Assembly (NCBI GenBank): GCA_004292755.1 | Contig: RDXE01000028.1 | Span: forward strand, 1-64,000 | Length of the DNA stretch: 64,000 nt | Origin: Alphaproteobacteria bacterium | Lineage (GTDB): Bacteria > Pseudomonadota > Alphaproteobacteria > Elsterales > Elsteraceae | Reading direction: 5' to 3' | In this document: positions 45,359-49,161 of the stretch, one piece after another | Layout: the number at the start of each line of letters is the position of its first letter | Numbering within the stretch: position 1 is the first letter of the stretch | Made by a program: the position numbers and the translations under genes | Notes under the pieces: generated by a model | What the model saw: only the letters and a program-made list of their open reading frames with translations | What the model was told of the DNA's origin: nothing | The model's database searches: none

Positions 45359-46521
45359 GCGCGACCAAACCGTTTGGCGATGCGGGCCACTGCTTCGTCC
45401 AACACCTCATCGCGCTTGGCAAAGCAGAACCGGGCATAGCCGCCGGGTGCGGCGGCACTGGCATAAAAGGCACCGACGGGGATTGCAGCCACGCCAACTT
45501 CTTGGGTGAGGTAGCGGCAGAACGCCTCGTCCGTGCCATCAAAGCCGGTGGAGGCCACGTCAATCGACAGGAAGTAGGTGCCCTCCGCCGGCAGCACGCC
45601 CAGGCCGCAGCGCTCCAACCCCGCGGCCAGCCGGTCGCGCTTGGCCTGCATCTCATCAATCAAGCCGGTGTAGTACTCGTCTGACTGGTTGAGGCCTGCC
45701 GCCACGGCGGCCTGCAGATTGGGCGGCGTGGTGAACACCAGGAATTGGTGCGCACGGGCGATGCGATCAATCAAGGCCGGGGCGGCCGTCAAGTAACCAA
45801 CCTTCCAGCCGGTCAGGCTGAAGGTTTTGCCTGCACTGCCAATCTTGATCGCCCGCTCGGCCATGCCCGGCAGGCTCAAAAGTGGGATGTGCTGGCGACC
45901 ATCAAACAGGATGTGTTCATAAACTTCGTCGCACAGGGCGTAGCAGTCCCACTGCTGCACCAACCGGGCGATCAGCGCCAATTCAGCGGCTGTGAACACC
46001 TTGGCCGAGGGGTTCATTGGCGTGTTGTACAAGATCAACTTGGTCTTGGGCCCAAACGCAGCTGTCAACTCTGCCTCCGGCAGCGACCAGTCCGGTGGAT
46101 TCAGGCGGACTGAGCGCGGAATACCCCCGGCACGGCGGATGATCGGCAGGTAGCTGTCATACAGCGGCTCGATCACCACCACTTCGTCGCCTGGCTCGAT
46201 CAGTGCGAACAAACATGCGGCCAGCGCCTCGGTGGCGCCTGAGGTGACCATGGTTTGCGTGGCCCAATCGACCTCCAACCCATAAAAGCGCCGGTCGTGG
46301 GCCGCCACTGCTTGGCGCAGCTCCGGCAGGCCCAGCATCGGCGGGTATTGGTTCGAGATGTCGGTCAAGGCCGCGGCGGCCGCAGCCACCACCGGGGCCG
46401 GGCCGTTCCCCTCTGGAAAGCCCTGGCCCAGATTGATTGCCCCATGCTCTCGGGCCAAGCGGCTCATCACTTCAAAGATCGTCGTGCCATACTGGGCCAG
46501 CGTGCTGTTGGTCGGCTTCAC
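45355..46521 (-). CDS. Class I/II aminotransferase (YbdL/kynurenine aminotransferase-like)
   Basis: A 388-residue fold type I PLP enzyme. Motifs: NLGQGFPEGNGP, the ISNQYPPMLGLPELRQAVA segment, TSGATEALAACLFALIEPGDEVVV, YNTPMNPSAKVF, CDEVYEHILFDG, and the PLP lysine in IGSAGKTFSLTGWKVGY. Closest by these signatures to methionine or kynurenine-type aminotransferases that use 2-oxo acids. ATG 46521 is the start. It is the upstream member of a two-gene unit with the TPR-methyltransferase and divergent from the 46.7-49.2 kb cassette. Confidence 0.88.
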   Translation of the reverse strand: MKPTNSTLAQYGTTIFEVMSRLAREHGAINLGQGFPEGNGPAPVVAAAAAALTDISNQYPPMLGLPELRQAVAAHDRRFYGLEVDWATQTMVTSGATEALAACLFALIEPGDEVVVIEPLYDSYLPIIRRAGGIPRSVRLNPPDWSLPEAELTAAFGPKTKLILYNTPMNPSAKVFTAAELALIARLVQQWDCYALCDEVYEHILFDGRQHIPLLSLPGMAERAIKIGSAGKTFSLTGWKVGYLTAAPALIDRIARAHQFLVFTTPPNLQAAVAAGLNQSDEYYTGLIDEMQAKRDRLAAGLERCGLGVLPAEGTYFLSIDVASTGFDGTDEAFCRYLTQEVGVAAIPVGAFYASAAAPGGYARFCFAKRDEVLDEAVARIAKRFGRA

Positions 46522-46722
46522 CGCACCCGCTCCTTGTCATCCCACCGCGTGCAAACGGCGGCGGAGGATACCGCAATCCGACACAGGAGCCAGCCCCGAT
46601 GGCGGGGGGAAGATCGGGTGGCCTTGCGCAGAGGTACACGCTACGCTAGTTGATGTGCGGCGTGTGACAGCAACCGGATTCTCAGAGGTGCCGTTTTATC
46701 AATTTCAGAGGGTAACGACGCC

Positions 46723-48048
46723 ATGACACAGCCCGCATTGAAGCCACTGTGCTTTGTGTTGATGCCGTTCGGAAACAAGCTCAGTGCAACCGGGGCCACA
46801 GTTGATTTTGACGCCGTGTATCAGGACGTGTTCCGCCCTGCGATCGAGGCTGCGGGGCTAGAGCCGTTGCGGGCGGACGAGGAGTTGGCGGGCGGTGTGA
46901 TCCATCGCGCGATGTTTGAGCGGCTGATCTTGTGTGACTATGCCCTGGCTGATCTCACCACGGCCAACGCCAATGTGTTCTATGAATTGGGGGTGAGGCA
47001 CGCCACCAAACGGCACACCACAGTGCTGACCTTCGCCAAGGACCAAGGCCAGCTACCCTTCGACGTCGCCTCTCTGCGCGCCACGCCCTACAGTCTTGGG
47101 GCCGACGGCGCGCCAAGCGATGTGGCTGCCGCCCGCGCCGCCTTGACCGAACGTCTGCGAGCAGCGCAGGAGCCCTCTGTCGACAGCCCGCTCTATCAAC
47201 TGATCGACAGCTATCCAGACCTCGGCCACACCAGCACCGATACGTTCCGCGACCGGGTTCGCTATGCGCAAGGCGCGAAAGACGCCCTCGCCACGGCGCG
47301 GCGCAAGGGGATGGACGCTGTGCGCGCGGTGGAGGCGGAGTTCGCCGCGCCGCTCGCCACTGTCGACCCAGCGGTGCTGATCGATCTGATGCTGTCCTAT
47401 CGCGCCGTCTCTGCCTGGGCCGACATGGTGCGGGTGGCAGACGCGATGACGCGCCCCCTTGCCACCTCCGTGATGGTGCAGGAGCAACTTGCCCTCGCCC
47501 TCAATCGGATGGGAGAGCGGGACCGGGCCGAAAACGTGATTGAGGCGTTGATCGCAAGGCGCGGCCCCAGCAGTGAGAGCTACGGCATCCTGGGCCGCAT
47601 CCGGAAGGACCAGTGGGAAGACGCGCACAAGGCGGGCCAGAGCCTGAAGGCCAAGGGTCTGCTGGAGCGCGCCATAGCCGCCTACCGCCTGGGCTTTGAG
47701 GCAGACTGGCGCGACGCGTACCCCGGCATCAACGCCCTCACCCTGATGACTCTGCACGGCGGGATGGAGAGCGACATCCAGGCGCTTGTTCCCGTCGTGC
47801 GCTATGCTGTCGAGCGAAAAATCGCAGCCGGTCGCCCCGACGATTGGGACCACGCCACGCTGGTGGAGCTGGCCGTCATCGCGGCCGATCGCACCCGCGC
47901 CGCAAACGCCCTCGCGGCCGCCCTCGCCTGCCAGACCGAGCCCTGGATGCGCGAAACCACCGCCCGCAACCTCCGCCTCCTCCGCAACGCCCCGGACCGA
48001 GAGGCTGAGACAGGGTGGGTGGATGAGCTGATTGGGGAGTTGGGATGA
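46723..48048 (+). CDS. NDRT-like/TRAFs-binding-domain protein, putative conflict or signalling component
   Basis: A 441-residue soluble protein. Residues 9-110 form a Rossmann-like nucleoside deoxyribosyltransferase-type module: VLMPFG (12-17), LRADEELAGGVIHRAMFERL, YALADLT (73-79) and NVFYELGVRHA with Glu88 at the position of the family's catalytic glutamate. The remainder is alpha-helical with TPR-like repeats (VMVQEQLALALNRMGERDRAENVIEALI, SYGILGRIRKDQWEDA, GLLERAIAAYRLGFEADWRDAYPGINALTL), matching the bacterial TRAFs-binding/DUF4071-type region known from ASK kinases. The base composition is normal for the window. ATGA overlap couples it to a second protein with the same module. Nucleotide cleavage or sensing is inference. 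Confidence 0.72.
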   Translation: MTQPALKPLCFVLMPFGNKLSATGATVDFDAVYQDVFRPAIEAAGLEPLRADEELAGGVIHRAMFERLILCDYALADLTTANANVFYELGVRHATKRHTTVLTFAKDQGQLPFDVASLRATPYSLGADGAPSDVAAARAALTERLRAAQEPSVDSPLYQLIDSYPDLGHTSTDTFRDRVRYAQGAKDALATARRKGMDAVRAVEAEFAAPLATVDPAVLIDLMLSYRAVSAWADMVRVADAMTRPLATSVMVQEQLALALNRMGERDRAENVIEALIARRGPSSESYGILGRIRKDQWEDAHKAGQSLKAKGLLERAIAAYRLGFEADWRDAYPGINALTLMTLHGGMESDIQALVPVVRYAVERKIAAGRPDDWDHATLVELAVIAADRTRAANALAAALACQTEPWMRETTARNLRLLRNAPDREAETGWVDELIGELG

Positions 48049-49016
48049 TGAGAAATGTTGAAAGAGTATCTTGCCCAGTTTGCGAAACGACCGAAAACAC
48101 AGGATTGGGATCGAGTGCCTCAGGCTTGGGGGACCATGGAAACGCACTCTTAGTCGATTGCACAAGATGCGGAGACTTTTCGGTGCAGCCGGGTATATTA
48201 AGAATGTTTCTTAGTCGTCATAGCCATTTAGAATTTCTAAGGTATTTTCTTTCATACCGCATTAGGAGTGTTTTTGATCGGAAACAAGAACGTGTTAAAA
48301 TTGATGAAGCGTTCTTACAAGACAGTCTTTCTATCGAATTTCCAGATTTTGATCACCAGATGCACAACACCCTCCTATATATTGGAAATCATTCTCCAAA
48401 ACCTGGACATGTCGTTGAGATGAAAGATACACTACAAGGCGGAATCATTGGGACAAAGACAGGAAGTAGCTTCACTGTCATCATCGAATGGCTAATGGAG
48501 GAAAAATTAATACAAGAGACATCAAGGATGAATTACCGCTTAACACTCTCAGGATGGAAAAGATACGTTGATCTAAAGACGAAATTCTCCCTGTCAGAAA
48601 ACGCCTTCATTGCTATGAAATTTGGAGATGAAGAATTCGACAAGTTCGTTGATAAGCACATGCGCAGAGCAGTCGCACAAACGGGTTACCAATTAAAACG
48701 AGCAGATGACCAACAGAAGGCTGGGTTGATCGATGCTCAAATGCGGCTGGACATCAAGAACGCGCGGTTCGTTATTGCGGACCTTACGCATGGGAGTCAC
48801 GGCGCCTACTGGGAAGCTGGATATGCTGAAGGACTTGGGAAACCGGTGATCTACACCTGCCGCGCAGATGTTTTTGAGAAAGAAAATGGGACCCACTTCG
48901 ATACCAATCACCACGTTACGATCAAGTGGTCCTACAATGATCCAAAACCAGCGATGGACAGGCTAAAAGCGACGATCCGCTACACAATTCCCGAGGCAAA
49001 GCAGCATGACAATTAG
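48045..49016 (+). CDS. Zinc-ribbon protein with C-terminal NDRT-like module, on A+T-rich DNA
   Basis: A 323-residue protein. Four cysteines (10, 13, 39, 42; CPVC...CTRC) make an N-terminal zinc ribbon. Residues 60-180 are helical with a winged-helix-like stretch (FTVIIEWLMEEKLIQET, YRLTLSGWKRYVDL). Residues 187-315 repeat the module of the preceding gene: AFIAMKFG (187-194), KRADDQQKAGLIDAQM, FVIADLT (242-248) and AYWEAGYAEGLGKPVIY with Glu257 in the catalytic-glutamate position. The DNA is far poorer in G+C than neighbours (21 of 60 at 48241-48300), suggesting recent transfer. The start overlaps the preceding stop. A DNA- or RNA-binding sensor with a nucleotide-handling domain is plausible. 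Confidence 0.75.
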   Translation: MMRNVERVSCPVCETTENTGLGSSASGLGDHGNALLVDCTRCGDFSVQPGILRMFLSRHSHLEFLRYFLSYRIRSVFDRKQERVKIDEAFLQDSLSIEFPDFDHQMHNTLLYIGNHSPKPGHVVEMKDTLQGGIIGTKTGSSFTVIIEWLMEEKLIQETSRMNYRLTLSGWKRYVDLKTKFSLSENAFIAMKFGDEEFDKFVDKHMRRAVAQTGYQLKRADDQQKAGLIDAQMRLDIKNARFVIADLTHGSHGAYWEAGYAEGLGKPVIYTCRADVFEKENGTHFDTNHHVTIKWSYNDPKPAMDRLKATIRYTIPEAKQHDN

Positions 49017-49161
49017 CGAAACCAGCGCCGCAGCGGTCCTGGCACTCCTGTGCCGAATTGACCAGCGATTGGACCATTTGGAAGACCTGCTGGCGGTACA
49101 ATCCAATCAGCTTCAGCGACTGGAGGCAGTTCTGGGCCTAACGGGCTCAGAACCAGCCTAA
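49006..49161 (+). CDS. Small coiled-coil ORF ending the cassette
   Basis: A 51-residue frame begins at an ATG 11 bases before the end of the zinc-ribbon gene and ends at TAA 49161. It encodes a hydrophilic helix with a heptad-like pattern (RIDQRLDHLEDLLAVQS, NQLQRLEAVLGL). The overlap continues the coupling seen between the first two genes, but there is no clear Shine-Dalgarno sequence, and the 3' end overlaps the convergent acetyltransferase by 15 bases. It could be a small partner protein or a chance frame. Confidence 0.45.
   Translation: MTISETSAAAVLALLCRIDQRLDHLEDLLAVQSNQLQRLEAVLGLTGSEPA

Follow-up and report, generated by a model that had tools for sequence, protein, structure and literature searches.

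Two adjacent bacterial genes, ORF1 and ORF2, encode proteins of different architecture that appear to share one nucleotide-processing domain, and the question that they raise is whether they form one system or are two genes that happen to lie side by side. They are found within a window of 64,000 nucleotides (the whole stretch of DNA that was analysed) from an alphaproteobacterium of the Elsteraceae, and a sequence-only reading had singled out the pair as a candidate conflict or nucleotide-signalling locus.

Layout of the locus

The overlap of ORF1 and ORF2 spans 4 nt (Table 1), and its form makes translational coupling of the two genes likely. ORF3 was considered as a third component and rejected on the grounds given in the table; it probably lies outside the system, and its last position, 49161, accounts for the end of the interval chosen by the sequence-only reading. 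A Pfam scan identified the flanking genes as aminotransferase, GNAT, PutA and similar housekeeping genes, with no defence island. A promoter/terminator scan of the locus gave approximately the shuffled expectation, and the only flanking repeat was a single 17-nt imperfect pair, located away from the borders. PADLOC matches of the pair were limited to weak TIR-effector matches (E 3e-7 and 2e-5). The base composition of ORF1 is host-like (GC 66%, GC3 0.80), whereas that of ORF2 is not (GC 44%, GC3 0.45; window GC 63%).

Table 1. Features of the locus, in window coordinates
Feature	Position	Strand	Description
Intergenic region	46522..46722	.	Short, divergent; from aminotransferase start to ORF1; G001 synteny stops at 46521
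ORF1	46723..48048	+	441 aa; DRHyd/NDT-like domain, residues ~8-130 (Glu88); MAP3K-TRAFs-binding/TPR-S helices, ~130-430
Overlap	48045..48048	+	ATGA, ORF1 stop/ORF2 start; basis: sequence
ORF2	48045..49016	+	323 aa; zinc ribbon; winged-helix-like middle, ~100-180; C-terminal DRHyd/NDT-like domain, ~186-315 (Glu257)
ORF3	49006..49161	+	51 aa; overlaps ORF2 stop; no Pfam match, no relative in fetched loci

ORF1 and ORF2 share a homologous domain

The two domains carry corresponding motifs (ORF1/ORF2: MPFG/MKFG, RADEE/RADDQ, ADLT/ADLT and FYELG/YWEAG) and can be aligned directly by BLASTP (E 3e-6, residues 2-90 with 179-259). Profile-profile comparison of 19 ORF1 domains with 54 ORF2 relatives gave a probability of 98.3% and an E of 2.4e-14, and the likeness is therefore not due to chance. 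This confirms the domains as homologous, with the three-layer Rossmannoid fold of the NDT/DRHyd superfamily. A Glu follows the Asp-Leu-Thr strand in both. Among the ORF1 relatives 18/19 retain Glu88 (Asn is found in one relative), and Glu257 is present in 54/54 ORF2 relatives; with the Asp/Gly/His that surround it, this conservation suggests retained catalysis, and from the alignments both residues are likely to be of the catalytic type.

Neither protein appears to be an ordinary nucleoside deoxyribosyltransferase (NDT), an assignment rejected on the Pfam cut-off and the different architecture: ORF2 misses the gathering score of PF05014 (Nuc_deoxyrib_tr) with 23.6 versus 28.8 bits, and ORF1 has no PF05014 match in Pfam. 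The deoxy-specific NDT/DNPH1 enzymes possess an active-site Tyr (PMC11204291). Judged from the sequence alone, no such Tyr is seen in the strand-1 motif of ORF1 or ORF2, and the Phe of MPFG/MKFG is replaced by Tyr in 9/54 ORF2 relatives.

ORF1 contains a bacterial equivalent of the part that regulates ASK1

Two Pfam families cover the helical part of ORF1 well above their cut-offs: PF13281 (MAP3K TRAFs-binding) at residues 85-428 (E 2.6e-41, 142.3 versus 24.1 bits) and PF20308 (TPR-S) at residues 232-342 (E 3e-25, 89.2 versus 27.6 bits). The Pfam name TPR-S stands for "Tetratricopeptide Repeats-Sensor", and the published idea behind it is reportedly a common signal receptor with interchangeable effectors. 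The sole PDB relative of ORF1 by sequence is human ASK1 (5ulm, E 5.7e-4), which is also the best PDB fold match (E 1.7e-4) of a moderate structural model (pLDDT 76, pTM 0.48). ORF1 consists of a DRHyd domain joined to TPR-S, which corresponds in bacteria to the regulatory region of ASK1, and it belongs to a class that was predicted earlier: Burroughs & Aravind 2020 reportedly predicted TPR-S/ASK-signalosome-like bacterial conflict proteins of this kind. Alignment of ASK1 with ORF1 is suggestive of a related N-terminal stretch that has YHLG for YELG, His at the Glu position; this stretch alone scores -1.2 bits. The TPR-S of ORF1 is predicted to bind an NAD+-derived ligand.

A second ORF1-like gene is present in G001, the congeneric genome described below (contig C165; L235: 4997-5530; 62% over residues 6-176), where it is cut by the contig end. 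Phages of Staphylococcus, Streptococcus and Dorea encode phrog_3634 relatives with the ORF1-type DRHyd domain, the match being confined to residues 10-124. Annotated phages yielded only such DRHyd-domain relatives of ORF1 and no ORF2 match, and viral contigs yielded relatives of the ORF1 domain and of ORF2 and no pair.

ORF2 represents a widespread family

The zinc ribbon of ORF2 is formed by cysteines C10, C13, C39 and C42, which are invariant in 54 relatives. In a confident model (pLDDT 89.7), the C-terminal domain matches the PDB folds of NDT, DNPH1, BcmB (CMP-glycosidase), SARM1 TIR and TIR-APAZ at a probability of 1.00, the best E being modest (2e-3); a viral CMP-hydrolase prediction matches the fold at 5e-6. 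Predicted secondary structure gives the middle region a helix-helix-hairpin pattern like that of a winged helix. Searching PDB sequences with an ORF2 profile returned only noise, and the family is without its own Pfam, NCBIfam or PADLOC model. In one scan, no fewer than 537 pattern-confirmed stretches were found to encode relatives, and full-length members occur in many phyla.

The relatives of ORF2 are solo in 79/80 best loci, and 39/50 ORF2-bearing genomes are without an ORF1 relative (cut-off E 1e-10). Their neighbours, in a raw tally without matched control, belong for the most part to housekeeping functions, and the handful of defence hits comprises candidates for type I restriction, SoFic, SduA, TIR and PDC. 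In four Phycisphaerae/Planctomycetota loci (L039, L043, L057 and L059) the ORF2-type gene directly follows an ETF beta-like gene, and in three of the four an ETF alpha-like gene lies close downstream.

For the individual proteins the sequence-only reading has held up. The coupling by overlap is likely, the shared core motifs are as it described, a catalytic role for the Glu remains likely from conservation, and the TRAFs-binding region and zinc ribbon are where it placed them; structure prediction and fold comparison add an NDT/DNPH1/TIR-like fold in ORF2, to which the ORF1 domain is homologous.

The pair is found at a non-homologous site in a congeneric genome

G001, a congeneric genome, contains both genes in an order that matches the window's, separated by 9 nt, with 53% (ORF1) and 44% (ORF2) identity to those of the window. 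In phylogenetic trees the window ORF1 and ORF2 each group with their G001 counterpart (SH-aLRT 99 and 96). Leftwards from the aminotransferase start (46521), the window is syntenic with G001 contig C138, and beyond the aminotransferase, where the window has the pair, C138 has an unrelated gene. Conversely, the HPPD-like gene that adjoins the pair in G001 has an 86% identical counterpart in the window's genome, on contig C46, and the pair is not beside it there. The two sites are non-homologous. Core genes are 76-86% identical between the genomes (PutA 76%, HPPD 86%, aminotransferase 85%), and the pair has therefore evolved faster. The most parsimonious account is that the two genes are mobile as one cassette, which changes rapidly. 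Joint acquisition of both genes from related sources would leave an identical picture, and it too implies that ORF1 and ORF2 travel together.

The GC contrast between the genes had suggested that ORF2 was acquired recently, downstream of an ORF1 already in place. This is rejected by G001: the co-descended pair at another site shows the same contrast (GC 46% in the ORF2 counterpart), and the GC mixture is therefore older than such an event. Low GC in the ORF2-type gene, seen in the window (48000-49000) and in G001, has been either maintained or repeatedly acquired.

Many ORF1 relatives lie near TIR or other TPR-S genes

A third case of adjacency was found on a plasmid of Aliarcobacter cryaerophilus, where an NDT-like gene (29% to ORF2; PF05014 E 1.1e-5) is separated by 2 nt from a downstream ORF1 relative (44%), the reverse of the window's gene order, with a run of TIR, TIR, patatin and TIR genes upstream of the two. 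Upstream of the NDT-like gene, other frames encode pairs of cysteines that resemble those in the zinc ribbon of ORF2 (L023: 4900-5998), which suggests that the ORF2-like gene is frameshifted or mis-sequenced.

When 14 ORF1 relatives were sampled independently of ORF2, the Aliarcobacter protein was the only one with an ORF2-type neighbour (13/14 are without). Hydrolase- or patatin-TPR-S genes adjoin seven (G452, G551, G449, two in G565, G891 and G833), TIR genes are near five (G449, one in G565, G861, Rhizobium and Paraburkholderia), and no recognised partner is near three (G332, G535 and G520). Among ORF1 relatives, hydrolase-TPR-S neighbours are found in G551, G449, G565, G891, G833, G430 and G420, patatin-TPR-S neighbours in G452 and G565, and TIR neighbours, including ThsB_TIR, on Pseudomonas and Rhizobium plasmids and in G449, G565 and G861. 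On a Pseudomonas plasmid, 6 nt separate the gene of a more distant DRHyd-TPR-S protein from the ThsB_TIR gene that follows it, and on Rhizobium plasmids a 2TM protein (SLATT_3/SLATT_1) is encoded beside the ORF1 relative. The simple gene caller may pick wrong frames in GC-rich loci, and neighbours were therefore trusted only with Pfam, homology or annotation backing; the counts, which rest on that caller with Pfam support, are a tally and not a statistical test.

The Rhizobium and Agrobacterium plasmid loci (L024 and L025) combine the ORF1 relative and the SLATT_3/SLATT_1 protein with a divergent block of two TIR, QueC-like, HhH-GPD and PfkB-like genes, followed in Rhizobium by ThsB_TIR. In a member of the Chlorobiota (L230, G420 contig C51), ORF1-type and hydrolase-TPR-S genes lie just before a contractile injection/phage-tail-like cluster, its sheath- and tube-like genes having been judged by reading.

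Discussion

We consider it slightly better than an even bet that the two genes are a small mobile immune-type (conflict) cassette, in which ORF1 would be the receptor-effector and ORF2 its zinc-ribbon/winged-helix-like/DRHyd partner. The cassette is supported by the shared fold family, the conserved Glu, the TPR-S identity of ORF1, the co-descent of the genes, their two non-homologous sites and the conflict-type company of ORF1. The pair is best read as a mobile conflict module of the TPR-S type, with a zinc-ribbon DRHyd protein in place of the usual TIR or second effector, and the best explanation for ORF2 is that it occupies the place held in relatives by a ThsB-type TIR, SLATT, hydrolase-TPR-S or patatin-TPR-S gene. 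TPR-S is common to DRHyd, hydrolase and patatin proteins, often together near TIR genes, which suggests that a shared receptor reads a single signal and can be combined with exchangeable effectors.

The substrate of the pair, the course of its signalling, contact between its two proteins and protection against phage are inferred. The N-terminal part of ORF2 would sense infection or stress, and ORF2, through its predicted catalytic Glu257, would make an NAD+- or nucleotide-derived product or consume the pool. The TPR-S repeat of ORF1, whose predicted binding target is a nucleotide-derived signal or a partner, would respond, and the DRHyd domain of ORF1, predicted to cleave an N-glycosidic bond of NAD(P)+ or another ribonucleotide via Glu88, would amplify the depletion until growth stops. 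Since it stands alone elsewhere, ORF2 is probably equipped with both a sensor and an enzyme, and because it holds the partner position we favour ORF2 as sensor and signal maker or first effector, with ORF1 as the amplifying responder. NAD(P)+ is the favoured substrate since active NDT-like/TIR-like defence effectors hydrolyse it (Swarozyc, PMC13174449; Retron-Eco1, according to PMC12405507). A bolder and doubtful proposal is that the ORF2 family consists of undescribed stand-alone immune glycohydrolases, wired in this genus to a TPR-S receptor, so that the maker and the responder share an enzyme fold.

Counting against the cassette are the housekeeping genes that flank the pair, the mainly housekeeping surroundings of ORF2 relatives and the moderate quality of the ORF1 model. 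The idea that the two genes are a necessary unit is weakened by the mostly solo occurrence of ORF2, by ORF1 relatives that mostly have other partners and by the strong GC difference. These same observations favour an explanation that we regard as rather unlikely, although it carries appreciable weight: a stand-alone ORF2 effector and a stand-alone ORF1 DRHyd-TPR-S protein, both conflict genes, have become adjacent without functional coupling. Against it are the G001 pair, co-descended in the same order with near-zero spacing at a non-homologous site, the similar adjacency on the Aliarcobacter plasmid, and the repeated finding of TPR-S genes next to another TIR/DRHyd-fold gene. The joint system proposed by the sequence-only reading gains from co-mobility in two congeneric genomes and from Aliarcobacter, and is weakened by the lack of the other gene at nearly all of the best ORF2 loci and sampled ORF1 relatives. 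The conflict-system flavour that it perceived is evident in the TIR, SLATT, patatin-TPR-S and hydrolase-TPR-S neighbours of ORF1 relatives.

It is improbable that one or both proteins are ordinary nucleoside deoxyribosyltransferases or nucleotide hydrolases of salvage or housekeeping metabolism. NDT, DNPH1 and CMP-glycosidase are among the closest folds, ORF2 has a sub-threshold PF05014 match, and some ORF2-type genes reside in housekeeping operons such as those with ETF in Phycisphaerae; yet the score that falls short of the cut-off, the fused zinc ribbon or TPR-S, the patchy distribution with two sites within one genus, the fast divergence and the TIR/patatin/SLATT company of ORF1 relatives all speak against salvage. 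More improbable still are catalytically idle sensors, whose DRHyd domains would be limited to binding NAD+/ADP-ribose derivatives, perhaps like the degenerate domain of ASK1. The ASK1 His, in a very weak alignment, and the Asn of one ORF1 relative indicate that non-catalytic versions may exist, but the near-complete retention of Glu in both families, with its surrounding residues, suggests that catalysis has been kept.

If the mobile cassette reading is true, the bacterial equivalent of the part that regulates an animal stress kinase, ASK1, would be tied to a testable NAD+/nucleotide signal. The two genes are small enough as a cassette for expression, mutation and assay, which could reveal the TPR-S ligand, and a function would be gained for a zinc-ribbon DRHyd family that is widespread and strictly conserved and has no model in Pfam, NCBIfam or PADLOC.

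Comparison with known systems

No description of the pair was found in the open literature searched, as the sequence-only reading had supposed, but this novelty does not extend to the kind of protein that ORF1 is, which had been predicted before. Prior mention is possible in Burroughs & Aravind 2020, a work cited in PMC8195603. ORF1 falls within a kind of protein already known from prediction, and the ORF2 family and the pairing are without a named model in the libraries searched.

The NDT/DNPH1/CMP N-glycosidase enzymes (BcmB, MilB) resemble both domains in the Rossmannoid fold and the Glu in (Y/W)E-x-G, and differ in that the window domains are below the PF05014 cut-off, are fused to regulatory domains and have Phe at the MPFG/MKFG position. 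Retron-Eco1, a type II retron, has an NDT-family effector, and the retron system hydrolyses NAD+; PMC12405507, citing Carabias 2024, attributes NAD+ hydrolysis to the NDT-like effector. Type II retron membership was rejected, there being no reverse transcriptase among the scanned flanking genes. In Swarozyc, a DUF4062 TIR-like effector hydrolyses NAD+ and an HTH/winged auxiliary domain recognises the phage portal (PMC13174449). Like ORF2, it joins a catalytic-Glu TIR/NDT-like domain to a winged-helix-like part, and the middle part of ORF2 may by analogy be compared with the portal-recognising domain; the domain order of ORF2 is reversed, with an extra zinc ribbon, and membership was rejected since neither ORF1 nor ORF2 has a DUF4062 match in Pfam.

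Thoeris (ThsB TIR with ThsA SIR2-SLOG or TM-macro) is possibly alike in combining an NAD+-processing partner with a receptor-effector in two genes, and some ORF1 relatives adjoin ThsB_TIR genes. The window pair has no TIR gene, SLOG, SIR2 or macro domain, and its receptor would be TPR-S; Thoeris membership was rejected because no such Pfam domains are present in ORF1, ORF2 or the flanking genes scanned. The TPR-S/ASK-signalosome-like proteins share with ORF1 the PF20308 and PF13281 regions, here fused to a DRHyd domain, as well as the company of TIR, SLATT, patatin-TPR-S and hydrolase-TPR-S genes seen in its relatives. The difference lies in the partner: the window has a zinc-ribbon DRHyd protein where the others have a TIR, SLATT or hydrolase protein.
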